Source: Caenorhabditis remanei
Taxonomy: Eukaryota; Nematoda; Chromadorea; Rhabditida; Rhabditidae
Reading direction: 5' to 3'
Length of the DNA stretch: 64,000 nt
NCBI RefSeq assembly: GCF_010183535.1
Contig: NC_071328.1
Span: forward strand, 15,748,001 to 15,812,000
The notes under the pieces were generated by a model. The model searched no databases. It saw only the letters and a program-made list of their open reading frames with translations, and was not told where the DNA came from. The translations under genes and the position numbers were made by a program. Numbering within the stretch: position 1 is the stretch's first letter; each line of letters begins with the position of its first letter. This document shows positions 10,891 to 33,471 of the stretch, piece after piece.

Positions 10891-10949
10891 CCTTTAAATA
10901 TACCTGTTTCAACAAAATCCTCTACTCCCTCCTCGCTATCAAAACCGTT

Positions 10950-11680: not shown

Positions 11681-11806
11681 GTGAGTTTTATTTAATTAAA
11701 GATTTTAATTAATTCAACTATTCTTTGCAGCTGAGTTATATTCTTTTGGTAGGGGGATCGGCTGTTCGGTAAGTTTTTGCTTATTTTTCAAAATTAGAGA
11801 TATACG

Positions 11807-11970
11807 CCTTTAAAAATGACGTCAGTGTAACATTTGCCACGAATTATTTATCTGCTCAATTTTGAAACGTTCATGCTAGTTTTGTAGATCAAAACCAGCG
11901 TTACATTTTTGTAATTGACCACTTTTCGATAGCTTCGCCCACTTTTGAGATATGCGCCATTAAAGACAGT
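11807..11970. mobile_element. MITE (GCGCATATCTC family), diverged
   Basis: The palindrome runs from AGATATACGCCTTTAAA to TTGAGATATGCGCC. Its duplicate lies at about 30200-30370. Further half-elements follow at 12025-12050 and 12195-12225. Confidence 0.7.
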
Positions 11971-12414
11971 AGTGTCTCGCTTCTCCTTCTCTCTCGTCTT
12001 CCTAGGTGCCTATCTTTGAAGACGAATATCTCAAAAATGGGCGGAGTTACCAAAAAAGTTCTCACCACAAAAATGTAACCCTAGACTTGGTCTACATACT
12101 GACTGTAAAAAATTTTAAATTTGACAAAATCTCTCATAGCTACAGTACTTTGAAAAATAACTTTTTTTCAAAGTTCAAAAATGTTAAAATTTTTAAAGGC
12201 GTATATCTCAAAAGTTGGCGGAGCTATCAAAAAATTGTCAACTACAAAAATGTAGCCCTATGCTGTGTTCTGTAATCTTTTTTTTTCTGTGTTCTGTAAT
12301 CTTTTTTCCAGACATTCCAGATATGAAATGCAATTTAAAAAAAAAAAACATACAATCTCTTCTTTTTTAGTCCTTGCTCCCTTCATTTTTGAAAACGAAA
12401 AAATTGATTTTCAG

Positions 12415-12500
12415 ATGCGTAAGGATTCAAGGAAAGCAATCATACGAAGGGAAGCGGATTAATTAAGAAAAAGAAGAAAACGTGAACAGGCTAAACTGGA
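12415..12500 (+). pseudogene. Basic exon fragment with in-frame stop
   Basis: After GATTTTCAG an ATG opens 15 codons of basic sequence (RKDSRKAIIRREAD), then TAA (12460-12462). The same frame continues after the stop with LRKRRKREQAKLERIR. The duplicate locus at 30961 keeps the ATG but diverges into other sequence. It was probably the first coding exon of the basic/acidic gene, now broken by the stop. Confidence 0.35.
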
Positions 12501-13989
12501 AAGAATCCGGAGTACGTTCCGTTTCATTTTGGGGGTTTTCGGATCTTTACTACAAATATTTGTTTCCACCACCTTCTTTCCCAATGGGTAGCAGGAATGG
12601 CGGAGGGAAAAAAAGTGGTCGGGGCTTAAAAATATGTCCAAAAAAGTTTTTTTGCTTTGCCGCTTGCAACTCTGTTCAAACTTTATATTTTTTGATATTT
12701 TTTTTAGCTGCTTAGCTAATAACTTTTTCTTGCTTTTTGTCAAATTGCATACTTCTGGAGTCAAAAAGAGTCGAGTTGTGCTCAAAAATATCCCCGCCGG
12801 GAGGCGGGGGACGCTAGTCCCGCAAAAAATCAAAACCTACAAAGACATATATTTAAATAGAATTCAATTTGAGTTTTTTCAGAAACACAAAAACCAATTC
12901 GGGACATGAATGAGGAAGAGCACAGGTTATACATGAGGAAAATGAAAGAACGTAGCCGGCAGAAGAAAAAGGATCTCATTGCACAGAAAAAGGTAATTGA
13001 AGCTATTTCTAAGTTTGAAAAGCCGAAAAAATGAACGATTTTGAACGATTTTTTAAAGGAATTTCTCAAATAAATAACGTAAAAATTCGATTTTAGACTG
13101 TTTTGAGCTGAAAATATCATCAAAAGTTTGAATATCAGAGCTTTTGGGTATTTTTAAGGAAAAATTTGGGAAAAATTGACTCTACAATTTCAAACAAATA
13201 ACATTTTTATGACGGGTATTCTTTTCAAATAAATCATAACTTTTAAGAAAAAGTTCAAATCTTTATTACTAATTATCTTCAACAGAGTATGTCTGTCGAT
13301 TTAGCTGTTGAAAACCATAACTCCGCCCGAAGTGGAACGATTTCTATAAAATCTAAATAAATTGGTTGGAAAATTCCCTTAGATGATGCACAAAATGTTT
13401 TTTTTTCAAAAATCTCAAATTTGACGAATTCTGGAAGCTAAATTGTGTTACGAGGGGACTAACCTGAAGTGTCCTGAGATTAAAGACAGGGATCCGGTAA
13501 AAAATGTTTGCGGAAAAAATATTTTGTTACTCAGATCGAGGAACCCGCACAAACACCACCTGTCCAGTTTCAACGTTCCCGACAAGGAACTCCGTATCCA
13601 AATTGGAGTGATGAGGACGACCGAGTCCCAGAATATGCAGATGAAAAGGTTAGTTTTTAGGTTACAAATTCAAACTAATTGCATTTTTATCACAGATGGT
13701 TGTTGACGGCGCCGAGCAACAGTCTGATTCAGAATATGAAGAATTTGCTTTGGAAGAAGCAAATGAGCGTTCACCTCTGCCACCAACCGAGGGCTCATCC
13801 GGATGTTCCGGAAACCGCATTTCCGCTTGCTCCCATGAAGTCTCGGTAAGTCATTATATTTTCTACAATCATTTTGATCAGTAGGAAACAACTGTTTTAG
13901 TATCTGTTGGGTTAGACACGACCGTCACATACTCTAAAACTAATCTAGCAAACGTTTCACAAAGCAATAAAAGTAACCTGACGTTGGTG

Positions 13990-15175: not shown

Positions 15176-15564
15176 TCATATTTGGCACCTTCTGGAAACG
15201 ATGACGTTTTTTGCGCTGATTTGCTTTAAGACCAGGCTTGGAGAGTTCTGTGAACTCGTTTTTCGCTCGATAAGTTTACCAGAGTCAGTTTCCAAAGAAA
15301 ATTATAGGAATCCGGTAAAGAAACAATTAAAAAAGGTATTTTGTTACAGGCCGAGGAACCTGCACAATCTCCACCTGAGCAATTACCCAGTTCCCACCAA
15401 GGAACTCCAAACTCAAACAGAATGGAGTACGAAGAGCAAGGCTCAGAATATGCAGATGAACAGGTTGGTTTATAGGCAACAATTTCAAAGAAATTGCATT
15501 TTTATCACAGGTGCTTATCAACGGCACCGAAGAACCAAATGCTCCAGAGTATGCTGCAGAAGCA

Positions 15565-16437
15565 TGTTGAGAGGGCAACGAAATAGCGGTCGGAGACTGA
15601 TGCCTCTCAAGGAGAAATAAGAAATCATCCCAAAATAAAGTGTAAACGGCATAAATTGTGAGTGTAAGCGGATAAGCGGTGTAACGAAAGAACGCAAGTA
15701 ATCAGTGACCCATTTATTTAACCTTTTCTTCTCGGAATTCTCCTCGAAGTATAACAAAATAGAGAGAAAGTGTAATTTAAGATAATTTGGAGAGCGTCGT
15801 GTCCAGAAGAGGAGTAAAGACGACGAAAATGGACGACGAACGCGGCGGGAACTGAAACGGCGGGAAAAAGAGACTAAAAGTCCCAAAAACCGGATAAAGT
15901 ATATTTGGCCTAGACTCTAACGCGCGCTCGGTACAGATGGCACAGAAAAGGTATAGTGCTGAGATCTGACCACCTCAACAACTCTTTCGGCGGGACGTAC
16001 AAGGTAAAACTGTACGGAGACGGTCGGCGAACCGACCGTCATCAACCGAACGAACGAGACGAACTGAACTCTGGCCTAAAAAGATTAGACTGAGCAAGAA
16101 GCGTCGCGGACACGCGACGCGACCGCGCGCGCGTGACGACATTAGCGTCACGGCGAAAATAGTGTGAGAATGGAGAGGAATTGGGTTTGTTGGAGCGCAT
16201 TTGCGGAGTTTTGAGTCTTTAGGGCGGTAATTTGAATAAGAATAATTTATAATAATTTAATATAAACCAGATAACTGGAAATAACGATGATAATTGTAAC
16301 ATTGTTAATAAACAGATTGAATAAAAGGTAATTAAAGGCTCCGATGGTCCTAGTTTTGTGGGCAAAACCAGAGGGGACCGTCGGATTGCCTTTGGTAGCC
16401 AAGTAAGGGGGTAACCAAAGGGGGAACCTTGGCTACA
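15565..16437 (-). repeat. 3' LTR
   Basis: 873 bases, matching 27036-27908. On the sense (minus) strand it starts TGTAGCC and ends CTCAACA. TATAAA is at 16251-16246 and AATAAA at 15718-15713, giving the order U3, R, U5. Between them are strong stem-loops: 16101-16120 (8-bp stem, 4-base loop), 16020-16039 (8-bp stem, 4-base loop) and about 16132-16152 (7-bp stem). It holds three copies of the 8-base word CGGCGGGA (15843, 15858, 15988). Confidence 0.92.
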
Positions 16438-18989
16438 CTCCCGGGGGGAGGGGACGGCGGGCTCCTGCAGTTCAGCAAGTTTGACGCAGTTAGTGAGCAA
16501 GTCTGTAGCTGTTTGCGAGAGAAGTATGCTCTCACTCAGCCCGACGGCCACTACAAAAGTATAGCATCGGCGGGATTTCCCTCAACCTCCAGTCTTGACT
16601 GGTGTAATTCACAATCTGCATCATCGAGATTCTTGAGTTGATCGGTGTTTGGGTTCAGTGGTGGTGAATAATTGAATAATTTTTGATAAGTTTTAGTAAT
16701 AGCTTTTAGATTCTGTTATAGATTGGCTGATCTTGTGACTTTTCTGGCATATCTCATGTGTTTATCTTTTAGAACGGCGGGAGTTGGCAATTCTTTAAGA
16801 CGATTGTTCTGTGCGTTATCTGTGCTATCCTCCGCTGCGGTATTTAGGCGGTTCAGTGGATTTAATTCCAGCGGAATCAGTTGACAGAATGCACGCGAAT
16901 CTACATTGCCTAGCATTAGACAATCTCAAGGCGAAATTGTCCGTCACGTTCACACAGATGATGATTGCCGATGACCAATTGTGCCTTTTTTAGAATCTTT
17001 TTTCAATGATGACCACCTGTCCAACGGCGGGACGCAATGGCGACAGCCGTTTTTTCTGTATGCTCTCTGGACGGAAGATATCGATCAGATTTTTCGTACC
17101 AGTCAGATAGCTTGATGCGACTTGTTCAGATAGGTTTGTATGATAACCTTTGTACTCGAGTAAAGAGTATCTGATGTGTATACGTCGGCAAGAGGTACAA
17201 TCTTGACTTTAAAGAGGGTAAAATCTTTTGATAATGGAGCAGTTTTTCTTTTGGACAGTTGTATTGTGGAATCAAATTGGGTTAATTAGTATGAATTTGT
17301 ACAATTTATACAATGTATCGATATAAGTGCTCTTTGAGTACTTTGTGATTTAAATTTTGTCAAAGTTTCATACTTGATATCCGATGGGAATTATAGCTTT
17401 GAGATTCACAGCCTTTTTGCTTCTCGTTGTTGCTGAGCAATCTGTCTGTTTTATATCAGTTGATTGATAAATCAGACTTGGTGGGCTGTTTCATCGTATG
17501 GCTTGCCCATGATAGGATTTTTAGTATTTTATTGAACTTTGAATGTTGTTAATACAATTTTAAATAATTTTATGAGAGAATTGTGTTGCTGTAAGGGTAG
17601 TAGTTGATGCCTACAGTCTTGACTGTTTCGGCGGGACTGGATCGAGCTTTATTATTCGAGCTCAATGGGCAGTTACTGAGGTTAGACGACTGTTACTATC
17701 AAGAATTATTGTTGTGTCAACCAGTCCGTGTGATTTCGTAAAGGGATCTTGTATTGCTGAAAATGAAGTGACAATTGGTGGTCTCTCACCCAAGACATTG
17801 TAGGCATAACAGACTACCGCACAGTTGTCATGTGACGCACTGCTAGACATATGCGAGAGTTGTTCGGAAAATTCGTTTCCGTCGTAAGCTGTCTAGGGAT
17901 GACGATCACTCTGTCTGTGAAGGTGCTACGCAGAGCTCTCCCATACGGGTAGCAGCTCATTTGGGATGAGACTCTTCCAATTACTGTCATTACTTCAAGC
18001 TGGATGTAAGCGATCACCAGACTAGTGAGATCAACATGTACAGTTTGACATTTTCAGCAACTTTGGAAGCAGCTTCTCTGTTTTTAGATGTTTGCTTTGT
18101 TAGAATTTTGCTCTTCTTCCGAGTTTTTCCATAAGTACTGTGACCATGTTTTTTGAGATGTTGCATATGTGAACCATCGGCGGGAATAGGGAGCCTTGGT
18201 GACGTTGTACGATCTTTGCGACGGAGTCTATGCCAGTGATCTTCCGAGTAGGAAAAAGTATCGCGGCACTGAACTTTTTTCATTCTTTTCACCGTGTTTT
18301 TATGGCACTACACAGGTTGCGACTTGCGATCTTGGTCAATCATTGGATCATTGTGGAGCCTTGAATATCTATTTACAAGACTTGGCTTGACCACGATCAT
18401 GATGTAAAGTGGATGCTTGGAAATCGGAGAAGAGCTTTGAATACAATTTTATCGTTCTGGCTGATATTGTTGGATCTTTGGACTGATTACTGTGTTTGTT
18501 TCAAGATTCTGAGGTATAAGAGTTATTTAGTTGCTTTTTAGGAAGAGTGACAATTGAGCGCCCGATTCGACAGAGCCAGACGAGTTACTCACTCTGACAT
18601 CTCAATGTAGGCGTAAAGTGATTGTAGTCACAATAAGGCATTAGCATTATACTCTTGTTACAATTTCGATCTTGCGAAAAAGTTGGTAAACATCAGTATG
18701 TCCAGTTTTATTGGATCCTCAGCTTTGGAACAGTTAGCTCGAGAAAACAAAAAACAAAAAACTATATATGTGTATATATAGAAAAAAAATTGAAAAATAA
18801 AAGAGCTTATTGGTTTGTTAGGTTAGTGATGGCTCCGACGGCGGGACGAGAACAGTTTTATCAGAAACGTGATTAGTAGAACAAGCAGGAAAATCAATAT
18901 CTTTAGCAAGTGATTTTAGTATTGCTGTTGGCAAGTCAGCTTATGACACAGAGTTCGGTACATTTGACTCTGTGCCTGCCGTAATGCCT
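16438..18989 (-). other. Element interior 3' of gag: no readable polymerase
   Basis: 2.5 kb between the Gag stop and the 3' LTR, where pol would normally start. The longest minus-strand frames are under 100 codons. One (17850-17662) starts SSSASHDNCAVVCYA, which faintly recalls the RNase H start of Pao-type polymerases (DAS...AxVxY), but nothing around it supports this. Six copies of the CGGCGGGA word are present, with one near-copy (CGGCGGGC) at about 16455. Confidence 0.5.
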
Positions 18990-21176
18990 TTACTGAGATT
19001 TGTTGGATTTTGTGCCACGGAAGAATTTTCTCACCGGCTTGGCACCTGCTGGGTAGTTCTCTTTGTTTCTGTAGTACTCTTTGGCTGGACATCCGCCCAT
19101 GTGGTGAAGACCATCACAGTATCCGCAGCGGAATTGAGCAGTACATTCTTTGATGCCATGCTTTTCAGTACAAATTGGGCACAATCTCTTTTTCTTGCAC
19201 TGACGTCTGAATTCGGCACTAGATAGCGTGCATCTGATCTCGTGATGTTTACCGTAGCATACCCGGCACTTTGACTTTTCGGCTTTGCAGTATGGGAAAG
19301 TGCGGTGAATGATGTTCAGGTTAGCACCTTTCGCTCTTGGAGCGTAGTAACCTTCCAATCGGAGGTTGGTAGCCGGGTCAATGTATTCGGCAGGATGATC
19401 ACTTGGAATATACGCCAATGTGCGTGGTTTCTTGTGCAGTGAGTTTGAAGAGAATTGAGCTGTCGGTGTCGAAACCGAGTTCAGGTTCGCATTTGCAGAG
19501 TTTACTGACGCATAGGACGGCGGGAGTTCATTCAGTGGTTGCTGACCGATTTGACTCTTGTAGATTTGATCCATGACTAGTGTCTCGACATCTCTACTGA
19601 TGCGGTCAATGACCATTGCATGAGTGAGTGAATCGCCAATTTTGACACTGTATTTAGCCAGACTCTTTCTCAAGTCTTCTGGAAGTTTTCGGGCTACCTC
19701 CCAAATAGTCCAATAGTCATCGGCGGGAACTCCTCTGTCTATCATTTGTTGAAGTACAACTGATATAGCAACCACATCCAGGCGCATGACTTCTGGATCT
19801 GATTGATGGAATGGCAATTGCTGTAGCTTTTGCATTAGATTATGCTTGCTGTCGACTTTGCCGTAAACTCTGTTCAATGATACGAATGTTGTTGCAATGG
19901 CAATAGCTGAATCCTTTGCTCGGGATATGCATTGCTGTGCTTCTCCCTTGATATGGGCTCGCAGCACTGTGTATTTTCCTTCTGTGCTCAATGCTTCTGA
20001 GGACATGACAAATTTATTAAACATTCTTTCGAAGAATTCTAAGTCACCATTTTCATCGAACGTTGGCAAGAGATCAATCAAAGCGTCTAGTTGTAGACCT
20101 TCGTTTTGTGGTCTTTGGCTTCGACTTCGGCTTTCTGCGCATTGGCGGCGGGAACGCTTTGTACGAGGCGGTGTGGAGCCCAGTGATTCCGTTTCGGATT
20201 CAGACGTATCTCCTTGCTCATATCTTTTCGCGTTACTCGACTCAGAAATCACCGAACTCTTTACGTGTGATCTTTTAGTTATTCGTGATCTGATGAACTC
20301 AGCTCTGTCGGAATTTGGAGCGTTTCTTTCTAGAGCCACTTGTGCTTCAGTGTCAGTATTCGTTGTATTTTTGAATGCAACTGTATGATGCTTTGCAGCT
20401 TCCATAAAAGACAGATCGCTTGCTGCAGATGACATGACTGGATAATCTGAGTGTGATAGAGAACGTATGTATAAGTTTTTCGAGCCTGCTCCCGTAGGTG
20501 TTGGCTCTTTGTGAATGCGAACTGTGTTCGACACGTTGGAACTGTTTCTATCATCGGCGGGACTAACGTCAGTTGAGATGTCATCCGCAACTCTGAAGCT
20601 GTGCTGGAAGCCGCTTAGCGGTTGGCCGCGGTTAGCCAACGCTTCTATCATGTTTTCGATGCATGTATTGATTTTGATTAGAATCTGATCAGCACCGCTT
20701 TCAATGAAAACGTTGGTAACGTCACGGAGATGTCTTTCTCTGTCCGCAGAGTTTAGAATCTCTGGCATTTGGAACTGTTCGTAGATATACATGTCAAGTG
20801 TCTCGATCCGAGATGCCGTGTCCTTCATGTCGAAGGCAAGTGTGGCTGCGGATGAGAGCATTTCTTGATCAATGCATTCAAGGATCTTATTGTTGGGATC
20901 ACACAAGAGTTTCAAGGATGCTTCCGACTCCACCAGGAGTTCTTCGGCTTTCTTTACTGTTCTTGTGATCGCCGTTTTGATTTGCCCGGCAATCAATTGC
21001 GTGAGCGTGTTTGATTGTAATTTTGAGCGGGACATCGCTCGAATACGAGGCTTTTCCGGCTCCGAGAGAGCCGAGAGAGCCTGAGGACTGCTGTTGGATG
21101 GAGATGTCGAACGGCGGGAGCGACCGGACATCATTGGAGAGGGTAAGAGCTTGTCAGAGACAACGAAACCAGTCAA
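18990..21176 (-). CDS. gag: Gag-like protein of the BEL/Pao-type element
   Basis: 728 residues from ATG at 21176-21174. The N-terminal third is Ser-rich with predicted helices. About residues 250-370 are polar with Ser/Arg-rich stretches. About 370-510 matches the Gag core of BEL/Pao elements (DUF1759-like; the stretch FFERMFNKFV and LRAHIKGEAQQCI are typical). Three zinc knuckles of form C-x2-C-x3-H-x4-C are at about 637-649, 666-678 and 684-696: CRVCYGKHHEIRC, CPICTEKHGIKEC and CGYCDGLHHMGGC. Knuckles bind the element's RNA; the core builds the particle (family knowledge). The frame is intact and ends in a stop with no protease or polymerase continuing. Five CGGCGGGA words fall inside it in three different codon phases. 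Confidence 0.85.
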   Translation of the reverse strand: MTGFVVSDKLLPSPMMSGRSRRSTSPSNSSPQALSALSEPEKPRIRAMSRSKLQSNTLTQLIAGQIKTAITRTVKKAEELLVESEASLKLLCDPNNKILECIDQEMLSSAATLAFDMKDTASRIETLDMYIYEQFQMPEILNSADRERHLRDVTNVFIESGADQILIKINTCIENMIEALANRGQPLSGFQHSFRVADDISTDVSPADDRNSSNVSNTVRIHKEPTPTGAGSKNLYIRSLSHSDYPVMSSAASDLSFMEAAKHHTVAFKNTTNTDTEAQVALERNAPNSDRAEFIRSRITKRSHVKSSVISESSNAKRYEQGDTSESETESLGSTPPRTKRSRRQCAESRSRSQRPQNEGLQLDALIDLLPTFDENGDLEFFERMFNKFVMSSEALSTEGKYTVLRAHIKGEAQQCISRAKDSAIAIATTFVSLNRVYGKVDSKHNLMQKLQQLPFHQSDPEVMRLDVVAISVVLQQMIDRGVPADDYWTIWEVARKLPEDLRKSLAKYSVKIGDSLTHAMVIDRISRDVETLVMDQIYKSQIGQQPLNELPPSYASVNSANANLNSVSTPTAQFSSNSLHKKPRTLAYIPSDHPAEYIDPATNLRLEGYYAPRAKGANLNIIHRTFPYCKAEKSKCRVCYGKHHEIRCTLSSAEFRRQCKKKRLCPICTEKHGIKECTAQFRCGYCDGLHHMGGCPAKEYYRNKENYPAGAKPVRKFFRGTKSNKSQ

Positions 21177-23731
21177 CTGAAAATGAAATGAATGATTTTT
21201 TGGAGGATTGATGTTAGCTTTCGTGGAATCGTCGTATTGACATGAGATGAGTACAAGAGGATTCCTCTTGATGCACTGTAATTCTCAATAATCTTATATC
21301 CGGAACTATACACTACTAGATGCATGTAGGTGAACTTGAGAGTTCACCGGATCTAGTCTGGTGTCTGAGTTTGCGGATGTTGTAGGGGCTACTTTCCAGA
21401 TAACTACGTATTCCTGTGGTGACAGGTCAATAGCTGTGCGCGGTCAGTAGGAGTGTTACGAATGCTTTTTATAGATACGCATGCATCTCTAAGATTACCG
21501 GTTTCTGGTAATCCGCCTGATATCGTTAGATATCAGTGATTTTTATACATACGAGTGTGCATGTTTTGTTTTTATACATACGAGTGTGCATGTCTTGGGT
21601 TATTGACGTCGTAACCCGAGTGGTCCAGAAGTCGGACATGTACTCTACAGTACCCTATGTGTAGGGGAAAAGGTCGACCGTGGTCCTTTTCTGATTACTA
21701 CGTACAGCCGTATGGTCGCAGCTTCGATGAAATCGACATAACCTGGCCTGGTTATGGTACGTAGGTCAAACTGATGTGAGCAGTAGCATACTTTGATGTG
21801 CTACCGTTCCAGATCAAAGGACACGAACACGATTCAGATCACTCTAGCAATGTAGCAGTGATGCATTGGAATCGTTCGTTTGTCACTTTGACTTTTGCAG
21901 TTAGGAATATCGATTAGCATTTGAAAGAAGTTGCAGTCATGTAGATCACGCATCACATGAATAAGAGCAATGGATGTGTGTGCCATTGTGGCTATCACTC
22001 TGCTCGTGATTTGCATTTGTACTTGTATGTTTATGCATTTCTTGCATGACTTTCCAGACTGCGCGTTCTCACAAACGTATTCGATATTAATCGATACGGA
22101 TATGATAGTAGAACGTGATAAAAACGCCGCCCTGTCGGTGGCCTTGGCCATATTATATCTCGCTGTAGTGCGATATTCAATGGACTTGTATCAAGTTCTC
22201 TGGCTGCCAACCAGAGGCTCGATTCGTGGAATATCGCTACCGACTTCTCACTCTATAGGGTCCGCTGCGTACCAGAATGGCCATTCCGGCACAGACAACT
22301 TTCTTTCTGCTTCAATCTGTAACTGCCACTTATAGACAACTTTCAGCCTTCAAAGTCTGTGGTGCAGGGAATATAGAGTGATTGGTTGGGTCTTTGAGAG
22401 TTGGCGGCTCTCTCCGATACTACAGTGTCATTGATACAACACGGATTCGGTTGCCGACAGCGCCATAGTTTATGATTTCTAAGATCCGATCAGTATTGTC
22501 AATTGTAGACGAATCTACAACCTAACTTTTGGAATACATATCACCTCTTCGGAAGGGGATGCCTTTCCGTATGAAGAGGGTTTCTTTTTCGCATGATCAA
22601 TTGAGGGCTTACTCGCGCTGTCAGCACATGACAGTGAATTACTTGGACAATCGATACAATGCTAGTAGTTTAGATGTTACACTACCATAATTGAAAACTT
22701 TTCGAAGATTTGAGTTCTTCTAGAGTCGGTTTTGATCTTATAAATTCTAGTGTGTTAGAATTTTTCGTGTTGGAGACATGTGCTTGGCAACTTTTCGCAC
22801 AGCTGAAACAGCGGCGGGATGTTACGTCTGATGTCTCTGTGTGTTCCGAAGTAGTTCATTATGTTGTGTGAACGTCTACTTTTTGGAACGTTGTATTTTT
22901 AGAAGTTTACACCATTGAACATGATCTTTTGGATGCGTTTTGTTCACCGGCGGGACTTCTATACTCGGGATTCTGATATGATGATTTTTCATCAAGTGAG
23001 TCCTTGTTTGAGTATTGTAATTTTTTCGGGTTCTAGAGCTTCTGCTCTTGTGTTATTGTTTTTCAGGGACAGAGCAAGTGACTGTTTGTCACGAATTCTG
23101 CTCTTCTGATGTAATGTAGTCTGTTAGAGTAAAGTATATTACTCGTGTATAGACTGTATGTGTGAAGCCATCGGTAGGCGTTTGTGAATCTAATGATTTG
23201 ATTCGAATTATACGCTTTTATAACCAACGGCGGGACAAACAGATTATTTTTTATCTGATTGTTTGTATAATTTACTGAATGTGGGACGTACCCTGTACTC
23301 AGTATCATTTTGCGCTCGAACTTATTCTTGCGTCTTGTTTTTCCAAGTGTTGGGACGTACCCGTGACACCCAGATTTTAGTTGAAAATTTATAAGGGTTT
23401 ATCATCCCCTTGGTGTTTGAGTGCTTTTTAAGCAGCTCAGAAGTTGTGGCTAAAGTGCCTAGTTTTTTTGTGCTCGAAAAGATCGTCTCGGGCTGCTCTC
23501 ATTATCATCTCATATCAATACGGACTCTCCACATGAAGGTCTTTTGGAAGCAAGTATGTTCAGAGTAGAATGACTCCTTTAGGTTTCAAAAAGGAGAGAA
23601 CAGACATGGTTAACAATGACAAATTTATTTGCAGGATGGGTCTTTAACAACATGTCTCGTTAGAGATAACAACGAAAATAATATGATTAACAGCGGCGGG
23701 ATATAGTATACAATCAGTAGTATGAGGACCG

Positions 23732-23764
23732 TTGGCTACGCTCCCGGGGGGAGGAGACGGCGGG
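23732..23764 (-). repeat. Internal copy of the 3' LTR boundary sequence
   Basis: Thirty-three bases matching 16429-16461 with two mismatches, spanning the LTR terminus GGCTAC and the adjacent CTCCCGGGGGGAGG tract through CGGCGGG. It could be a remnant of an earlier nested LTR or recombination, or a duplicated plus-strand priming tract. Confidence 0.75.
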
Positions 23765-26756
23765 AGTACTCTGATTGAAGAAGTGTCTTCGTTGAGTTGA
23801 TGCCGAAATGGGATGCTGTAATAATCAATAGTTGTTAACTATCATGTTGATATATGTGCCATACCTTATTGGCTGGTCTTTTGAGAGACGGCGGTAGAGC
23901 GGCGGGAGAACTCGTATATAGAGGGATTGTCCTGCTCGCATGGAACGCATGGAACGCGGCCTTTCTGAAAAGTATTCAGATGAGGGTATCTTTCGAGTAA
24001 TTCTCTTTAACTCACGCTTGTAGGAGGGGTTACTGGAATATGACTCCCTTCTTCCTTGGACTGCGTGTCACTCTCAAACTCGGCGGGATTATGCTCACAT
24101 GTAACGAAACAGAGGATTCGCTCGAATGAGATGTCATATATAGACATCAATTGTCGAAGATTCTTGTTTACTCGATTTATGCGATCAATATTATCCAACC
24201 TCGTTGTTGATATGGACAGTCCGGCGGGAAGTCCTCTGGAATAAGGATCATATTTGTTTTGATTTGATGCTATTGATGTTATACCTTGACAAGAAGAAGC
24301 CTGAACGAGGGATGATGAACCACGGACAGCTGATGGAATAATGATTTCAACTGAATCTGAGTTCTCACCGGCGGGAATTAGCTATAGGAGCTTTTCACGC
24401 TTCGGAAGAGCTGCTGGATAAGTGTCCTTGACTGGTTCTGACTTGTGAGCTCTCTTCTTTCTTTGGCTCTAGGTCACCTGATCGCTATCTCTAACGTCCC
24501 CCGAAGACGTATTGAAAGGCATATCGTTCGGCGGGAGGAGAGTGACTTTGCTAACTTCTGTCTTCTTATTCACTTTCAGTGCACTTGCTTCATTAGTTAC
24601 AATAGTATGTGACTCATTAGAAGTCATCTGCAACGAAGTTGTTACAAATTAGACGAGTTTCACAGTTTGATGTAACAGAAGCGCGTGTGTTCCACGTCTG
24701 AATATGTAAAATAGTTGAATATGTTTAAGAAGTGTCTTAAAAGGAACACCAACAATGTATGACAGTGGTTTTATGAGAGAATACAATAAGGTTTTAACAA
24801 TTTATTAGCATTTCTTCGCATTAAGCTAACGGCGGGATTCGGTGTCGTTTTCCTGACATGTTCTCGCTTCACCGACACATTCCAATCGATTTCCATCTTT
24901 TTCAGTTTCAGAAGCTTATGCTTCACGAGATGGGGATCGGCCATGTGGGCTATCATCTGGAAGTGACGGCGGGAACTGTGTTTCCGAATCATCCGGCGAC
25001 TGTTGCCCTGTCAGATCGTAGAGACGGCGGGACCTAGTCGCTTGGCTTGGCTCTGAATAAAGAATAATTATTCATGAGCTCGCTTTTTGGATTGTATTAC
25101 CTGGATTGAGGCCTCAGCTCTCTGGAATCGGGCGACTTGGTCGCTTTGATCTTTTGAGACATCCGAAACGGCGCTGAACGTGTTGGAACTCTCCGAAGTC
25201 CTCTTGGGACGCATTCAGAAGACGTGGTGGTTCACGTCGGCTCTTCGGCGGGACTTGCTTCTGCAAATTGACAGAATTAGCTTTAGGTATACAATATTGA
25301 GATTTAAAGCGATGTTTTTTATCGATTTTTAGTGAATTTTCGCGTTTTATCGATATATTTCAGCTTGTTTTTATTCAAAATGTTAGAATTTTTGCTTGAA
25401 AATGTATGCGATGAGCAATTGAATGGATATTTAGGCTTGATTTCAGAGAAATACAAAATATTAGAGACGATCGCCACGCTATCGCTCTGTTTTTGCCTTC
25501 ATTCACGTATTGCATCATCATTTTCGACGATTTTGGTTGAAATTCCCGAAAAATGTGGTATTTCCCTGAGAAATTCCAACAAACACATCACGAGCAATGA
25601 AGCTCCAGCGTATTTATTGTAATCCCACCTGGGGTTAACCAAGAATATTCGAGTTTCCACCGAAAATCGTTTGAGATTCCAATTTTTTGCGATTTTTTTA
25701 CGAAAATTTTCGATTTTTTAGCATGAACGCTGTGATTTTTGCCGAAAGCTTGGCTAATAGCCTTTTGTACCTCAAGCGAGTAGATAATTTTGAGAATTTT
25801 TCACAAGTTGGCTAGGTTTTAGCCTTGAAACCGAAAATTTTATGAGAAAATTATCGATTTTTTGAATTTTTTGTCATTTTTCTCGTAATTTTTTTCTCGA
25901 ATTTTTCCAAAATCACTTAAGAAATACTCACTCTTTCGAAGGAATTTCCTCCATCGGCGGGATTCTTCAGCAATGCGACGTTTCCGATATTGCCAGACGG
26001 CGGGATGGTAGATTTGGAGTTTTTGACTTCTTTGATAGTGATTTTTTGGTTGCCATGCCACATTTTTGGTCTGAAAATGTTCAGAATGTTTATTTTTCAT
26101 AATATTTAAGTGAAATATTAACGAAACGAAAGAGAATTTAGTACGGAAGAGCGAAAAATTTTTTAGGCCGAGCGAAAAAAGTATTTCGAAACTCGTGCGC
26201 GTAAGGTCTTGTACATTGCGGTCCGCAATGGTACGCAGCCCGTGTGCGGAGCCTGCGGTCGCGTACCGTACTCTTGTTGTGAAATTCAAATTTGTGTCGA
26301 TTTACGGAGCTCATTTTAGAGGTTCCCCGATGAAATTTCGACGGATTTTCGAAATTTTTCGAATATTTTTGGGCAAATGACAATGGAAAAAATTTTGAAC
26401 ACCGTTTTGTAGCGTATGTGATACCGGTGTCACACATTTTCATGAGAAAATGAGGATAAATCAGGTTTTACTCAGTAATTACGCGTGAAGGTGGTTTTCT
26501 GTCTCGAATATTCGAATGACAGGTCTGGGTGACGGTTTTTAATCGCCTGTCCAGAAAAAATGACGGAATAACGAGAAAAGAGAGAGAAATAACAAGGAAA
26601 AGAACGAGAAAAAGGTGTTTCAGGGTATAAAATTAGCATTCTAACGTTGTTTCACCTGCTCACAAGCCGTAATTTTGGATTTTCGGGATGCCGACGCGGT
26701 TCTTTGTAGTGATTTTCGCTCACTTTGTCGATATATTGATTTTCTTTCGTCCACCT

Positions 26757-26918
26757 GGAGTTTTGCGACGCGAGGGCCACAAAAAACGACTACTCCAACA
26801 GCGGCGGGAATTATTTTTTGGTTTTTTCCGGAGTTTTGTGCCACAGGGGTCACAAAAAACGACTACTCCGGTTCGCCTGGAGTTTTGCGACACGAGGGTC
26901 ACAAAAAACGACTACTCC
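26757..26918 (-). repeat. Three 40-base hairpin-capable repeats near the 5' LTR
   Basis: Units at 26757-26796, 26830-26869 and 26879-26918. Each starts GGAGTTTTG and ends AACGACTACTCC, so ends can pair (GGAG with CTCC). The first and third are followed by AACAG then CGGCGGGA. On the sense strand they lie about 120-280 bases downstream of the primer site, where retroelement packaging signals often sit. Confidence 0.7.
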
Positions 26919-27019
26919 AACAGCGGCGGGAACCAAAATACGCTCAAAAAAGAGAGAGAACGGTAAAGAAAAAATCGACGGAACGTAAAAATCATGGGCC
27001 AATCAATAAAAATATTGAA

Positions 27020-27035
27020 CGGTCGTTATGCACCA
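27020..27035 (-). other. Putative primer-binding site
   Basis: Directly inside the 5' LTR the sense strand reads TGGTGCATAACGACCG. It begins with TGG, the complement of tRNA CCA ends, at the position expected for a reverse-transcription primer site. The first eight bases also fit the 3' end of metazoan tRNA-Gly as I recall it, but the rest does not, so the primer tRNA is unresolved. Confidence 0.5.
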
Positions 27036-27908
27036 TGTTGAGAGGGCAACGAAATAGCGGTCGGAGACTGATGCCTCTCAAGGAGAAATAAGAAATCATC
27101 CCAAAATAAAGTGTAAACGGCATAAATTGTGAGTGTAAGCGGATAAGCGGTGTAACGAAAGAACGCAAGTAATCAGTGACCCATTTATTTAACCTTTTCT
27201 TCTCGGAATTCTCCTCGAAGTATAACAAAATAGAGAGAAAGTGTAATTTAAGATAATTTGGAGAGCGTCGTGTCCAGAAGAGGAGTAAAGACGACGAAAA
27301 TGGACGACGAACGCGGCGGGAACTGAAACGGCGGGAAAAAGAGACTAAAAGTCCCAAAAACCGGATAAAGTATATTTGGCCTAGACTCTAACGCGCGCTC
27401 GGTACAGATGGCACAGAAAAGGTATAGTGCTGAGATCTGACCACCTCAACAACTCTTTCGGCGGGACGTACAAGGTAAAACTGTACGGAGACGGTCGGCG
27501 AACCGACCGTCATCAACCGAACGAACGAGACGAACTGAACTCTGGCCTAAAAAGATTAGACTGAGCAAGAAGCGTCGCGGACACGCGACGCGACCGCGCG
27601 CGCGTGACGACATTAGCGTCACGGCGAAAATAGTGTGAGAATGGAGAGGAATTGGGTTTGTTGGAGCGCATTTGCGGAGTTTTGAGTCTTTAGGGCGGTA
27701 ATTTGAATAAGAATAATTTATAATAATTTAATATAAACCAGATAACTGGAAATAACGATGATAATTGTAACATTGTTAATAAACAGATTGAATAAAAGGT
27801 AATTAAAGGCTCCGATGGTCCTAGTTTTGTGGGCAAAACCAGAGGGGACCGTCGGATTGCCTTTGGTAGCCAAGTAAGGGGGTAACCAAAGGGGGAACCT
27901 TGGCTACA
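27036..27908 (-). repeat. 5' LTR
   Basis: The same 873-base sequence as the left LTR. TATAAA is at 27722-27717 and AATAAA at 27189-27184 on the sense strand. It is followed on the plus strand by AAGCA, the target duplication. Short frames in the LTR, such as those at 15518-15886 and 26992-27357, are identical between copies and are not genes. Confidence 0.92.
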
Positions 27909-28198
27909 AAGCACTTGCTGTGGAAGAAGCGTATGAGTTTCCGCCTCTGCCACCAATCGAGGGCTCATCCAGAGATTCTGGAAACAGCATTCTTCGTTCC
28001 TCCCATGAAGTTTTTGTAAGTCATTATATTTTTTACAAGCAGTTTGATCAGTAGGAAACAACAGTTTCAATATCTGTTGAATTGGAAACACCCGTCACAT
28101 ACTTGAGAACTCTAAAGCAACAGTTTCACAAAGCAACCTGACGTTGGTGCTACTAAATGATTCAAATATAGAGTAAATTGCGAAATTTTTATTTTTTT

Positions 28199-28416
28199 GA
28201 ACGATTCTAGCGCCGCAGGCGCCCCAGACTGTTTTAGCGCCCCAGGCACCCCAGGCAATTTTTGCGCCGCAGGCACCCCAGAGATTCTTGCGCCGCAGGC
28301 ACCCCAGACAATCCCAGTGCCGCAGGCACCCCAGACAGTTTAAGCGCCCCAGGCACCCCAGGCAATTTTTGCGCCGCAGGCACCCCAGTTAGTTTTAGCG
28401 CCGCAGGCACCCCAGT
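28199..28416 (+). repeat. 27-bp minisatellite array
   Basis: About eight units (GCGCCGCAGGCACCCCAG, with GCGCCCCAGGCACC variants) at the left edge of the right segmental-duplication copy. A short second patch, opposite orientation, is at about 28935-29000. Confidence 0.88.
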
Positions 28417-29129
28417 AAATCAAAACCTGGCTCCGTGACGAGCTTTCAAAAAAACCCATTACATAATTTACAGGCGCATTATTTGACGTTCCAAACCATA
28501 CTTTATTTTGAAAAAATGTATTCGAAATGATAACATAATAAAGTTTTGTTTTCCAGGAAGAAGACATGCAAAGGTTTCAACTGGTGCTCAGAGAGAGCGC
28601 GACACCTGAACTTCTTCAAAAGATCAAAATTTGAAGAAGAAATCGATTGTCTTCAACAACCTCAATATGAAACCGGGTAATATCATAGCCCTGAAGAACG
28701 CTGCAACATTATTGGTGAATAATTTGAAGAAAATTTTCTAATTTCAATTTTTGCGTCAAACTACTCAGAAATTCTTTTATTTATGTTATTTTTGTTATAT
28801 CTTCTTTTTGTGTCTTTCCGCTTTTTAAAAAATACTTGTAATTGAACGATTGTTTTTTCTTAATGCTCTCAAAAAAATGTACAACATTGAGTCCTCCAGT
28901 ATTAAATCAGACACAAAAAACTGGTTGAGATATAGCCTGGGGTGCCTGCGGTGCTAAAATTATCTGGGGTGCCTGCGGCGCTCGAATCGGCTGGGGTGCC
29001 TGTGAGCTATGTGCCGGCTGGTGTTGACAAGTCTTTGGTCTTCTTGTATTTTTGAATCACATAGTTACAGTACCTCAAATTTAAGTTTATTTTTTTCAAA
29101 ATTCTAAAAAAAAATTGAAAAACTTTAAA

Positions 29130-29270
29130 AGCGCATATCTCAAAAGTGGGCGGAGCTACTAAAATATAGCAAACTAACAAAAATAAAGAAAAACTCACGC
29201 GCTACATTTTTTCAGTTAACACCTTTTTGTTAGTCCCGCCCACTTTTAAGATATGCGCCTTTAAAGATAC
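29130..29270. mobile_element. MITE, full palindrome
   Basis: CGCATATCTCAAAAGTGGGC at the left, CGCCCACTTTTAAGATATGC at the right. It is the partner of 10588-10728 in the duplicate. Confidence 0.85.
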
Positions 29271-29487
29271 CTGCGGTGCTAGAATTCATGAGCTGGCACT
29301 TTTTCTCGGCGAAAATGGACAAGTTTGATAATTACAGTATATTCAAATTATTACATAACTATATAGTGCATGTCCTGGGCTACGTTTTTGCAGTTGTCAT
29401 TTTTTCAATAGCTCCGCCCACTTTTGAGATATGCGCCTTTAAAGATACCTGTTTCAACAAGATCCCTACCATCAATTCATCTATTTC

Positions 29488-29650
29488 TGCGCCGAAGGCA
29501 CCACAGCCGATTCTTGCGCCGCAGGCACCCCAGCAAATTTTAGCGCCGAAGGCACCCCAGCCGATTCTAGCGCCGCAGGCACTCCAGACAATTTTAGCGG
29601 CGCAGGCACTCCAGACGATTCTATGAAACAATTCTAGCGCCGCAGGCATC
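29488..29650 (+). repeat. 27-bp minisatellite array
   Basis: About six units. It is the counterpart of 10950-11252 with fewer copies. Confidence 0.88.
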
Positions 29651-31242
29651 TGATACTTGGTCAGTGTATTTTGGTCACTGTAGTGCTAGCAGTAGTCCGC
29701 CCCTTGTACAGCTTAAGAACACTAACACAAAGAGGACAAACACCTTCTCTCTTCCATTACGTCACCCAACAACCATTCTAACCTATTCTAAACGAAATAG
29801 CACTAATGATCGAGAGCCAACAGACATTCCGACCTTTGTGCGTAACAGAAGGTGCTAACGGACCCTGTCTGCGTCTCTCTGTTTACTCTCTCTCTCTCTG
29901 GCAAAAAGTGTCCAAAAGTGACACAACTTGTCAGTATTCCCCCTTGATCGCTTACTAGTATACCCCCTTTTCTTTTTTTTTAGGATTTCTTAATTATTCA
30001 ATTTTTTTCATTTTGCAGGGTAACTTAATCAAGACTACCTACTGAATGGTTTGGTCGACAACTATGGATATTTGATTCTTTTTGAATTGTGAGTTTTATT
30101 TAATTTATTTTAATTAATTCAACTATTTTTTGCAGCTAAATTATATTATTTTGGTACGAGGGGATCGGCTGTTTGGTAAGTTTTTGCTAATTTTTCAAAA
30201 TTAGAGATATGCGCCTTTAAAGATGACGTCAGTGTAACATTTGCCACGAATTATTTTTCTGCTCAATTTTGAAACGTTTATGCTAGTTTTGTAGAGCAAA
30301 ACGAGCGTTACGTTTTTGTAATTGACCTATTTTCGATTGCTCCGCCCACTTTCGAGATATGCGCCTTTACAGACAGTAGTGTCTCGCTTCTCTGCGTCTC
30401 TCCCTCCTTTTCTCTCTCGTCTTCCTAGGTGCCCATCTTTAAAGGCGCATATCTCAAAAATGGGGGGAGATAGCAAAAAAGTTTTGACTACAAAAATGTA
30501 GCCCCAGACTTGCTCTACATTTTGATTGTAAAAAATTTCAAATTTGACAAAATCTCTCATAGCTACAGTACTTCAAAAAATATTTTTTTTTCAAAGTTCA
30601 AAAATGTTGAAATCTTTAAATGCCCATATTTCAAAACTGGGAGGAGCTATCAAAAAATTGTCAACTACAAAAATGTAGCCCTAGGTTAGACCTATGTTGA
30701 AAAACAAATTTCAGATTAGTAGACTAAAATGTGGCTCCGTGACGAGCTTTCAAAAATTTGACAAATTTTCAAACAACATTTTTTTGAAAATTTTTTGAAC
30801 CTGAATCTTCACTGATATTTTTTCTATTACGGTTTCTGTGTTCTGTAATCTTTTTCTCAGACATTCCAGATATGAAATGCAATTTTAAAAAACATAAAAT
30901 ATCTTCTTTTTTAGTCCTTGCTCCCTTCTTTTTTGAAAACAAAGAAAAATTGATTTTCAGATGCGTCGGGATCAGGGTTGGAAAAAAAGTGGTCGGCGCT
31001 TAAAAATATGTCCAAAAAAGTTTTTTTGCTTTGCCGCTTGCAACTCTGTTCAAACTTTATATTTTTTGATAATTTTCTTTAGCTGCTTAGCTAATAACTT
31101 TTTCTTGCTTTTTGTCAAATTGCATACTTCTGGAGTCAAAAAGAGTCGAGTTGTGCTCAAAAATATGGGGACGCTAGTCCCGCAAAAAATCAAAACCTAC
31201 AAAGACATATATTTAAATAGAATTCAATTTGAGTTTTTTCAG

Positions 31243-33471
31243 AAACACAAAAACCAATTCGGGACATGAATGAGGAAGAGCACAGGTTATACATGAGGAA
31301 AATGAAAGAACGTAGCCGGCAGAAGAAAAAGGATCTCATTGCACAGAAAAAGGTAATTGAAGCTATTTCTAAGTTTGAAAAGCCGAAAAAATGAACGATT
31401 TTGAACGATTTTTTAAAGGAATTTCTCAAATAAATAACGTAAAAATTCGATTTTAGACTGTTTTGAGCTGAGCTGAAAATATCATCAAAAGTTTGAATAT
31501 CAGAGCTTTTGGGTATTTTTAAGGAAAAATTTGGGAAAAATTGACTAAAAATTAGATTTTTTCTGAAACACCTCTGATTTTCTGATTTTCTGATTTTTTC
31601 TGATTTTTTCTGAAAATTCTAGACACTGCCCGTCTTTAAAGGAGATTACGGTAACAGTAGGAGAAACGGACGATTGAGTTGGGAAAAGAGGCGTGGCTTA
31701 TGAGGCTCCGCCCACTTTTCTGACAAGGCTGATTTGCGATTTTTGGGTTTTTAAAGAGAAAATCGATTGAGAATCTGATTTTTTTTCTGAAATTCATATA
31801 TATTTTTTGAATTTTAGCATTAATTCTCAACGTTTCTCCGATATTCCAGAATCCGGTATGCGTGTCTATCCATGAGAACGCGACGGCAGCCACTCCAAAA
31901 AATCTGAAACATTCGTACGTCGTTTTTGAAGAAAACTCTTAAAATTTGTCTCTTAAAACTAACATTTGAAAAAACCTCAAAATCAGTTTTCAGTTCAGAA
32001 ACTATTTTTAAGGTCAAATCATTTAACATTAAAAAATCTCAATTTCTCTCCTTCAGAATCAAGACTAGCGTCCCCCGCCTCCCGGCGTTCGAAACAGACA
32101 CACCGACTGATCCTATTTTCCCCAGCATTCGATCAGAACATTCGAAATTTTTACAATATTTCCTTTCATATTCTTTTAGAAATTTAATACAAGCAACAAA
32201 AAAAACAAAAAAAAAACGAATCAGTAGGTTTCGAACCATCACCTCACTGATTTTCACCCCCCGCCCTCTTCCACTGCGCCACAAATCTGAAATTCAGCGG
32301 ATGTCAAAATCAATCCAAGCCCCCTATCAGTAGTAGACGCAAAATTTATAATTTTATTAATTTCAGCCACGCGCCGAGAGCCCAAAGATGGAGGAAAATG
32401 AGGAAGAAGAGCGTGACACATCATCTAGAGCGGCAACGAGTGAGAGTCCAGAAGCAATGGAGCAGGAGGAGGAGGTTCCAGAAGTTGCTATGGTAAGAAT
32501 CAAGACTAGCGTGACCCGCCTCCCGGCCCGCCTCCTGGCTCAAAACAATGTGAGCTACCCTTCGGAAAACTCTCAGCGATATCAAAATACCAAGCCTTAT
32601 GAAATGACTGAAAGGGTTCAAAGGACGTCTAAATATTTTTTGACACGTTTAATTGTTTCTTGGAAAGACGTTTAAAAAAAATTAGAGTTTGAAGGGACGT
32701 TTGAGTTTTTAAAGGACATCTAAACTGGAATAGAGCCAAAAAAAGTTACACTGACAAAAGACATTTTCTTTAATACTAAACGAATTAAATACAGTAACAA
32801 AAACTTACACTGACAAAAACATCAAATCAAACGCTACAATTTTTTGGTTGACAACCTTTTGATAGTTCCGCCCATATTGAAATAAAATACACTGACAAAG
32901 TTTCCGCTCATTCCCCTTAAAGACTTTAAAGATGCCTGCGGCGCGCCTTTGGCGCAGACATGTTTGCGACGCTAGAATGGTTATCTACAGCAGACTAGGG
33001 TGCCTACGGCGCTAGAATTGCAGAACTATTCAAAAAAAGAGAATAAGTTATCCATCATTATTTTGGAACGTCTAAATACTTACAACTATATTTTTGAGTT
33101 TCAGGGAACGTCTAAACATTTTATGGGACGTTTGAACGTTTTTTGGGACGTCTCAACATTTTGAAAGACGTTTCAAAAAATAGAGTTCCCTGACGATTCT
33201 AGCGCCGCAGGCACACCAGACGATTCTAGCGCCGCAGGCATACCGGAACGGAACTTAAAACAAACATTTAAAAAAAACCTCACAATCAGTTTTCAGTTCA
33301 GAAACCATTTAACATTAAAAAGTCTCAATTTCTCTCCTTCAGAATCAAGATCCAATGGTAGCAGTGGCATCAACTTCCAACCAAGTAGCCAGCGTGGATC
33401 CGGCCGGCGGAAGTTTTGAAAATCATCTATTACTTCGATCAGTGTTTCGTCAAGGAAAATCACTCAAGTAA
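31243..33471 (+). CDS. 3' exons of a second basic/acidic gene copy
   Basis: Exons 31243-31352, 32367-32492 and 33343-33471, all joined in phase 0. Exon 1 duplicates the basic exon at 12883-12992. Exon 2 (after AATTTCAG) is acidic: KMEENEEEERDTSS and MEQEEEVPEVAM. Exon 3 ends LRSVFRQGKSLK before TAA 33469-33471, with AATAAA near 33530. A further possible exon at 31850-31914 (phase 2) would not join 32367 in frame, so I left it out. No domain is recognised; the layout parallels the triplicated-exon gene. The 5' end is undefined, because the ATG exon at 30961 is disrupted. Confidence 0.5.
32216..32291 (-). repeat. tRNA-like sequence (A and B boxes), probable SINE or pseudogene
   Basis: The minus strand contains TGGCGCAGTGGAAGAGGG, a good A-box/D-arm, and about 40 bases later GGTTCGAAACC, a B-box/T-arm. 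Acceptor stems do not pair convincingly. It lies in the intron of the basic/acidic gene. Confidence 0.5.

Follow-up and report, generated by a model that had tools for sequence, protein, structure and literature searches.

Why does one 8-base word, CGGCGGGA, recur in a single orientation throughout a retrotransposon of Caenorhabditis remanei, and what would read it? The word lies in a BEL/Pao-type LTR retrotransposon that occupies positions 15565-27908 of the 64-kb stretch of DNA analyzed here (the window), with its genes on the minus strand.

Architecture of the element

The two LTRs of 873 bp are 100% identical, have TG...CA ends and are flanked by a 5-bp target duplication (AAGCA), as in BEL/Pao elements. 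Gag carries a DUF1759 domain (9.7e-08, above the curated cut-off), which is typical of BEL/Pao Gag, and, near its C-terminus, three CX2CX3HX4C zinc knuckles read by eye from the sequence. The parts of the element are as follows.

15560-15564: target-site duplication AAGCA, left
15565-16437, minus strand: 3' LTR, TG...CA ends
16512-17994, minus strand: pol remnants matching residues 861-940, 1122-1209, 1564-1599 and 1617-1763 of E5 pol
18990-21176, minus strand: gag ORF of 764 aa between stops, or 728 aa when counted from the first listed start
21177-27019, minus strand: long leader from the primer site to gag, with 18 of the 29 interior words
27020-27035, minus strand: likely tRNA primer-binding site, TGG start adjoining the 5' LTR, length a guess
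27036-27908, minus strand: 5' LTR, identical to the 3' LTR
27909-27913: target-site duplication AAGCA, right

Pol is present in the window copy as remnants only. In addition to those listed above, residues 1-199 of the pol of E5, a family member in which the gag and pol frames are open, match 18911-19501, overlapping gag; the rest of E5 pol had no match in the window copy at E 1e-3. The pol of E5 is that of a BEL/Pao element, with Peptidase_A17 at 2.6e-56, RVT_1 and Integrase_H2C2 above the cut-off, and rve and protease below it. Among 7,996 scored candidates sharing most words with Gag, none reached an E value of 0.001 or better. Pol had no match among viral contigs, and 27 pattern matches in bacterial and archaeal genome contigs yielded 0 confirmed ones. 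The structure model of Gag had a mean pLDDT of 53.7, with values below 50 over residues 544-700 (the zinc-knuckle region), and its comparison with the PDB gave nothing significant (best E 0.083). The best PDB matches, none of them significant, include capsids (PNMA2, MLV, Copia and Arc) and designed helical bundles.

The word is exact, one-stranded and far above chance

A sequence-only reading of the window had reported 35 copies of CGGCGGGA, three in each LTR and 29 in the interior, the first of these at 16568 and the last at 26924. Our recount gave the same figures: 35 copies in 64,000 bases, every one inside the element. The reversed form TCCCGCCG was found 0 times in the 64,000 bases, as had been claimed for the element, and the position of gag on the minus strand bears out that the word on the sense RNA is UCCCGCCG. 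The sites are listed below; they are exact matches.

15843-15850, minus strand: word, LTR
15858-15865, minus strand: word, LTR
15988-15995, minus strand: word, LTR
16568-16575, minus strand: word
16775-16782, minus strand: word
17025-17032, minus strand: word
17629-17636, minus strand: word
18178-18185, minus strand: word
18839-18846, minus strand: word
19518-19525, minus strand: word in gag
19721-19728, minus strand: word in gag at residues GVPADD, where the sister family spells its own word
20146-20153, minus strand: word in gag
20555-20562, minus strand: word in gag
21112-21119, minus strand: word in gag
22812-22819, minus strand: word
22948-22955, minus strand: word
23228-23235, minus strand: word
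23694-23701, minus strand: word
23758-23765, minus strand: word
23900-23907, minus strand: word
24081-24088, minus strand: word
24222-24229, minus strand: word
24369-24376, minus strand: word
24529-24536, minus strand: word
24830-24837, minus strand: word
24967-24974, minus strand: word
25025-25032, minus strand: word
25246-25253, minus strand: word
25955-25962, minus strand: word
25998-26005, minus strand: word
26802-26809, minus strand: word
26924-26931, minus strand: word
27314-27321, minus strand: word, LTR
27329-27336, minus strand: word, LTR
27459-27466, minus strand: word, LTR

The claim that chance would produce few such copies agrees with our shuffles of the interior preserving dinucleotides, which contained a mean of 0.10 copies and at most 2 (300 shuffles) compared to the 29 seen; no 8-mer of any kind exceeded 9 copies in them. 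If orientation were random, the 32 distinct sites of the window element would all point one way with a probability of 10^-9.3. The spacing of the interior words was irregular (coefficient of variation 0.91, compared to 0.95 for random placement), and a regular spacing was therefore rejected.

A repeat of this kind could reflect descent rather than function: duplication or conversion may have multiplied a short repeat, or the word may be a by-product of protein sequence. Indeed, in the family elements E5 and E7 a few neighbouring words belong to small repeats spaced by 18 bases, and coding words prefer a Pro-Ala frame (8 of 12 in E5 pol and 5 of 7 in E5 gag, two sites being in both). However, the flanks of the window sites look unrelated except for the LTR pairs and one 62-base repeat, and since flanks differ, a longer repeat was rejected as the source of the words. 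The flanks had been described as unconserved, which holds in that no longer repeat is present but overlooks weak preferences: of 101 sites counted in three elements, with homologous and LTR copies among them, 56 have A at the second base preceding the word, 46 have C at the third, and 47 have T at the third base following it. Decayed forms are few in the same three elements, with 0 to 3 copies of each single-mismatch form compared to 101 exact words. The five copies in the window gag fall in codon phases 1, 2, 0, 2 and 0, all three phases as previously noted, and synonymous shuffles of this gag gave a mean of 0.08 copies (maximum 1 in 500). Overall, codon shuffles gave means of 0.08 to 0.24 compared to the 5, 7 and 12 words seen, which led us to reject a protein-driven word, and the leaders of the family carry about 3 words per kb. 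Descent is thus hardly credible as an explanation.

The word is concentrated in one family of elements

We then considered the window copy together with six relatives whose LTRs are 75-99% identical to its own, one of them read in part. Equal counts on both strands would have spoken against a stranded signal. Instead, we found 261 sense and 0 antisense words in 93,176 bases of the seven elements, many of the sites being homologous and hence not 261 independent events. The words were present in LTRs, leader, gag and pol, at 1.9-4.7 per kb in each of the 16 family pieces longer than 1 kb (one 301-base piece had 0), and their number rises with the length of the element, from 28 words for 11.2 kb read to 65 for 19.4 kb. 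Unrelated DNA did not show a similar density, as 117,740 bases of flanking and window non-element DNA contained 0 words. The whole genome contains 2,028 words in 130.5 Mb, about 0.016 per kb compared to about 2.8 in the elements. This is nevertheless an excess over the reversed control (716), and most of these words lie outside the counted copies. Close pairs of words in the same orientation were almost confined to the family of the window element (41 of 43 in the 130-Mb genome, with membership assigned from the genomic places of family copies), and the reversed-pattern control gave 2.

Since the word is in excess genome-wide, mostly outside the counted copies, a host protein might also read it. 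A host or element RNA-binding factor could use it, in place of packaging, to export the long unspliced RNA from the nucleus or to suppress splicing, premature ends or small-RNA silencing. Such a role would come with the same strandedness and spread through the element, and the growth of copy number with element length is what a coating function would need. Moreover, export of genomic RNA in Cer1 of C. elegans depends on CERV, a protein of the element itself, according to the available part of that study (PMC10309623). On the other hand, a host reader should favour one word, whereas a sister family uses another (see below). No CERV-like protein was recognized, Pfam giving no match for the two extra ORFs of E7, which are also absent among the ORFs of the window copy. 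We regard this role as rather unlikely.

The word outlasts its flanks

Alignment of family members allowed us to ask whether the word decays at the neutral rate, and its decay proved slower than that of the flanking bases. In the comparison in which the flanks diverge by 25%, the word survived at 15 of 21 aligned sites, where the flank rate predicts 3.9. The other comparisons gave 30 of 32 (21.2 expected), 18 of 19 (10.1), 20 of 27 (7.3), 33 of 33 (23.7) and 29 of 30 (19.3), with an approximate p of at most 3e-4 in each of the six. Stretches of E7 unmatched in E5 also carry the word (11 copies in 2,733 bases and 14 in 1,862). Where homologous sites differ in having the word, 3-4 of the 8 bases can differ while the flanks are 58-77% alike, as in CAACCGAA versus CGGCGGGA. 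From these unpolarised comparisons, it looks as if words had been gained under pressure. In an alignment of 24 LTR copies, two of the LTR words were kept in 17 and 19 copies, which places them at the 83rd and 86th percentiles of all LTR 8-mers. The third was kept in 6 of the copies, and some of the relatives carry theirs at another position. Conservation of the words within the LTR is thus not exceptional, and taken by itself the LTR provides weak evidence.

A sister family carries a different word

The same genome harbors a sister BEL family (L057/L059) whose Gag is 48% identical to that of the window element. The window word was found 0 times on either strand in 4 kb of L057, and a 1.5-kb piece of L059 had no sense copy of it and no CCGCCG. 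Instead, the 4 kb of L057 revealed a sense word of its own, ANCCGCGG. In a separate test on the 1.5-kb L059 piece, which lies upstream of gag, CCGCGG occurred 5 times compared to 0.14 in shuffles. Altogether, this core has 14 copies in 5.5 kb, with A at position -2 (sense) in 12 of the 14, and one-mismatch forms of the sister word number 0 to 2 each. At the Gag residues GVPADD, the window family writes GTTCCCGCCGAT and the sister family GTACCCGCGGAT, each thereby spelling its own word. In the sister gag, CCGCGG was found 6 times compared to a synonymous-shuffle mean of 0.69 (maximum 5 in 500); with any best word allowed, the sister gag alone showed no excess over synonymous shuffles. A more distant BEL family, L058, had no significant word, its best one, GCATCCCA, being borderline with 4 copies, and such a word may thus not be a general property of BEL elements.

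The word could also be a DNA-binding site, for E2F/DP, another transcription factor or an insulator protein, serving chromatin or transcription control. It is CG-rich and contains the E2F-like core CCCGCC, the sister core is a palindrome, the word is in excess elsewhere in the genome, and the gypsy insulator provides a retrotransposon with 12 sites for one host factor (the available part of PMC2374998). A single orientation throughout would be unexpected for such sites, which here run through gag, pol, leader and LTR rather than one control region, and elements of one host have different words. The E2F/DP (EFL-1/DPL-1) consensus has TTT before CCCGCC, and its sites are promoter-proximal and orientation-free. 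The resemblance to it pointed out earlier turned out to be a poor fit: the TTT is not conserved, since of the 101 sites 30 have A at the first base following CGGCGGGA and 23 at the second, near base composition. An E2F site was rejected as unlikely on account of the missing TTT flank, the single orientation and the run of sites through gag, pol and leader, and a DNA-binding site in general we consider unlikely.

A separate observation concerns the sister core: T is found at position +2 in 7 of the 14 sites, and this T together with the palindrome would suit a DNA-binding dimer, which counts against reading the word as an RNA tag.

A candidate RNA identity tag

Tentatively, with a probability of about 0.42, we propose that UCCCGCCG serves packaging as an RNA identity tag whose reader is an RNA-binding protein encoded by the element, the zinc knuckles of Gag being the most likely candidate. 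Strict strandedness favours the RNA level, as the sequence-only reading had argued; we infer this level of action, as well as the element-encoded reader, Gag in that role and packaging as the purpose. The different word of the sister family points to an element-encoded reader, and the presence of two words in a single host speaks for two readers, each matched to its word. Such a reader would bind UCCCGCCG on the sense RNA and thereby select the genomic RNA of its own element and condense it. Many identical contacts would add up, and RNA without the word would be left out. One and the same word is present in E5, whose gag and pol frames are open, and in the pol-deficient copy of the window; by keeping it, the latter may share the particles of its likely autonomous relatives. 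No structural basis for the reading of 8 bases was found, because the two families, despite their different words, have similar zinc knuckles, and this region of Gag is modelled with low confidence.

RNA folding gave a mean unpaired probability of 0.436 for the word, compared to 0.45 for shuffled words at the same places and 0.30 for 120 other 8-mers of 7 G+C. Presentation in a hairpin is thus unsupported.

The word might instead pair with a complementary host or element RNA, that is, a small RNA guide or a structural RNA containing CGGCGGGA. Its exactness over 8 bases and its strandedness resemble seed pairing. However, the wobble-capable C-to-U variants of the sense word number 0 to 2 each, as rare as other mismatches, and in the elements read CGGCGGGA is absent from the sense strand. 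Such pairing is very unlikely.

Extending the RNA tag to both families, one could envisage that families in one genome each write their own exact word, a variant of a CCGC[C/G]G core, several times per kb along all parts of their RNA, as a self/non-self password read by their own Gag. Such a password would act as a barcode keeping rival elements apart, and parasites without pol would have to copy it in order to travel along. Judging from the sequences of the two families, we find this possible but doubtful.

Comparison with known systems

Little is understood, to our knowledge, about how an LTR retrotransposon distinguishes its RNA from that of the host or of other elements, and such packaging signals as we are aware of are local and structural. 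Among the literature matches listed, no title or abstract start dealt with such a word in a retrotransposon.

The available part of one study describes dispersed packaging signals along the genomic RNA of MS2 and picornaviruses, with proposed reading by coat protein (PMC6281560). As in these single-stranded RNA viruses, many copies of one motif are spread along the genome, here seen on DNA. The MS2 motifs are short, lie in stem-loops and vary around a shared core (PMC6281560), whereas the word described here is linear and exact over 8 bases, no particular presentation was found for it, and it belongs to an LTR retrotransposon whose sister family has a different word. Cer1 is likewise an LTR retrotransposon of a nematode and has a way of its own to handle its long unspliced genomic RNA, but it is Gypsy/Ty3-related and uses the protein CERV, whereas our element is BEL/Pao; in the main text of that study, looked up by motif, repeats and GGGA, no repeated RNA word was found (PMC10309623). 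In the gypsy insulator, too, a retrotransposon carries a series of short sites, there for a single protein. Its 12 Su(Hw) sites, as given in the available text, are clustered in 340 bp of the 5' untranslated region and follow a variable consensus (PMC2374998), while the words described here are exact, one-stranded and spread without such clustering over 11-20 kb and all parts of the element.

Bacterial DNA uptake sequences and skewed words of the Chi/KOPS type are short, exact and over-represented, and mark self DNA or give direction. Those words act on DNA, whereas the present one belongs to a eukaryotic retroelement and likely acts at the RNA level.

If the tag reading is true, one could read RNA self-recognition in these elements directly off the sequence and test it with short oligonucleotides, and such recognition could also account for the persistence of pol-deficient copies.

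The window element and its repeated word

The 8-base word CGGCGGGA lies on the plus strand within an LTR element (E1) with the following features.

15565-27908, minus strand: BEL/Pao-type LTR element, two LTRs of 873 bp each, 100% alike
Both sides of the element: target duplications AAGCA
27035: start of the likely primer-binding site, which begins TGG
21177-27019: leader of about 5.9 kb, before gag
18990-21176: gag ORF, 728 aa, with a DUF1759 domain and three zinc knuckles

Since its LTRs are identical, E1 is a young insertion. Remnants alone of pol are present, making E1 a pol-deficient copy. It lies between the two copies of a duplication (10078-13181 and 28585-31546, spacing about 18.4 kb), many blocks of which are 84-100% identical. 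A 27-base unit that includes GCGCCGCAGGCACCCCAG is tandemly repeated in arrays around it at 10892-11272, 28196-28447, 29455-29673 and 33161-33247.

The sequence-only reading had counted 35 copies of the word in one orientation, and we obtained the same figure: 35 on the plus strand and 0 reversed, the sense RNA form being UCCCGCCG. Shuffling that preserves dinucleotides or codons, a check proposed in that reading, left the word far above the shuffled counts in E1 and in its relative E5. The E1 interior harbors 29 words, compared to a mean of 0.10 and a maximum of 2 in 300 dinucleotide shuffles. Synonymous shuffles gave means of 0.08 for E1 gag (5 seen), 0.12 for E5 gag (7 seen) and 0.24 for E5 pol (12 seen), where the E5 gag and pol frames overlap and two words are counted in both.

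Both E1 and E5 have a leader of almost 6 kb before gag, and they are about 80% identical in parts of the leader and 68-72% in gag DNA. Compared to E5 Gag (6952-9699 of the fetched E5 piece, L046), E1 Gag (18990-21176) is without a long central segment, part of which looks like a charged helix in E5.

The word is carried in one orientation in all family copies read

We searched the genome (130,466,896 bases, 186 contigs) with the LTR and, after scoring 40 of 83 candidates, found at least 44 places with an identity of 68-100%. Words were counted in E1 and six relatives.

Words in seven copies of the family
E1, window copy: 35, counted whole
E2, C6:6340994-6353648: 35, counted whole
E3, C3:17251353-17262528: 28, counted whole
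E4, C4:10408558-10422234: 22, 7.7 of 13.7 kb counted
E5, C5:17031246-17046421: 41, counted whole
E6, C6:5569654-5584369: 35, counted whole
E7, C6:3500404-3520071: 65, counted except 236 bases

Equal counts on both strands, the outcome that the sequence-only reading had set against its own claim, were not observed: these copies sum to 261 sense words in 93,176 bases, with 0 reversed. Density was 1.9-4.7 per kb across 16 pieces longer than 1 kb, the E1 and E5 leaders being denser (3.1-3.2) than E1 gag and E5 gag-pol (2.2-2.3). The 24 aligned LTR copies held 0-3 words apiece, none reversed, and the word was absent from both strands of 117,740 bases of fetched non-element DNA. Genome-wide, 43 same-orientation word pairs lay at most 30 bases apart; by position, 41 belonged to this family, and the 2 outside it equaled the reversed-pattern control.

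In the whole genome, there are 2,028 copies of CGGCGGGA and 716 of the reversed word, an excess of which the 261 counted family copies cover part. Among the first 100 places listed for the word, five on one strand occur within 1.8 kb at C1:4693069-4694874, a place absent from the LTR-search list, which is possibly an interior fragment of the family or another carrier. Upstream of its gag, E7 has two additional ORFs, 371 and 276 aa long (7022-8137 and 8270-9100 of its fetched piece, L049), with no Pfam matches, in or beside a stretch without E5 match that holds 11 words.

The word is exact and is retained while its flanks diverge

In E1, E3 and E5 (37,823 bases), the exact word occurs 101 times, compared to 0-3 times for each of the 24 one-mismatch words in the same orientation; a cloud of decaying copies is absent. 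We then compared the words kept at aligned sites with the chance of 8 bases staying intact at the local flank divergence, using sites with 60 aligned flank bases and letting a kept word be displaced by at most 3 columns.

Words retained (expected)
E1-E2: 30/32 (21.2)
E1-E4: 18/19 (10.1)
E1-E3: 20/27 (7.3)
E1-E5: 15/21 (3.9)
E3-E1: 20/21 (5.8)
E5-E1: 14/22 (3.5)
E5-E6: 33/33 (23.7)
E5-E7: 29/30 (19.3)
E6-E7: 24/24 (15.0)
E4-E5: 9/10 (3.0)

Retention thus exceeded the flank-based expectation in all ten comparisons, which bears out the conservation that the earlier reading had proposed to look for. With no column shift allowed, 19 of 27 (E3) and 14 of 22 (E5) words were kept; for other CpG-bearing 8-mers with at least 6 G+C, the figures were 42% (230/544) for E3 and 29% (155/538) for E5. 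Sites turn over as well: at some homologous places, 3-4 of the 8 bases are not those of the word, and 4.6 kb of E7 sequence, in two stretches unmatched in E5, contain 25 words. Taken together, loss, turnover and retention would be consistent with ongoing selection for the number of words, not for fixed places.

A sister family carries a different word

The 4 kb read from L057, a related BEL family, lack CGGCGGGA; the gag of this family is 48% identical to that of the window over the portion read. The 4-kb piece contains CCGCGG 9 times (0.6 expected from composition), and a further 1.5 kb upstream of the sister gag, presumed noncoding and fetched as a test, contains it 5 times (0.14 in shuffles); the background in fetched non-element DNA is 6 in 117,740 bases. 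In the sense direction, an A stands two bases before 12 of 14 sites and a T two bases after 7 of 14, and one-mismatch forms occur 0-2 times. Since the sense word of the E1-E7 family is likewise followed two bases later by U (56 of 101 sites), the two words seem to be variant spellings of a single motif, CCGC[C/G]G-N-U. At the shared Gag residues GVPADD, each family writes its own word through synonymous codons. In the sister gag alone, the best word was not above the best of codon-shuffled sequences, and the CCGCGG count was above all 500 codon shuffles.

In a more distant family (L058, 23% identical), no significant word was found, so that two of the three sampled families have one. GCATCCCA occurs there four times (1307-2748), all sense, and is borderline in synonymous shuffling.

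Relation to known systems

The nearest working analogue is the dispersed packaging signals of RNA viruses, described as stem-loop motifs that vary around a core (PMC6281560), whereas here the word is exact. In gypsy, the insulator sites form a compact cluster on the DNA (PMC2374998), while the E1-E7 word runs through the whole element. Cer1 has its RNA exported by a protein, CERV (PMC10309623). The available portions of these three descriptions contain no exact one-strand word running through a whole element. Such a word in a retrotransposon was not reported among the matches listed in the open-access literature either.

A candidate role in packaging

Because its orientation is strict over coding and other parts, the word would act on RNA or in a one-directional process along the element. 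Two families of one host use different words, which suggests that the readers come with the element. Gag is likely the RNA-binding product common to pol-deficient and likely autonomous copies. As in retroviral nucleocapsids, three knuckles could in principle span 6-9 bases.

Several points speak against a packaging tag: the knuckles are similar in both families despite their different words, the sister core CCGCGG is palindromic, the genome-wide excess of the word extends beyond the family copies counted, and the Gag structure model is of low confidence at the knuckles. Nevertheless, because Gag is shared by both copy types and its knuckles could cover a word of this length, the reading we favor from these sequences is that the word may serve as a multivalent identity tag for packaging, with the Gag knuckles as its candidate reader.
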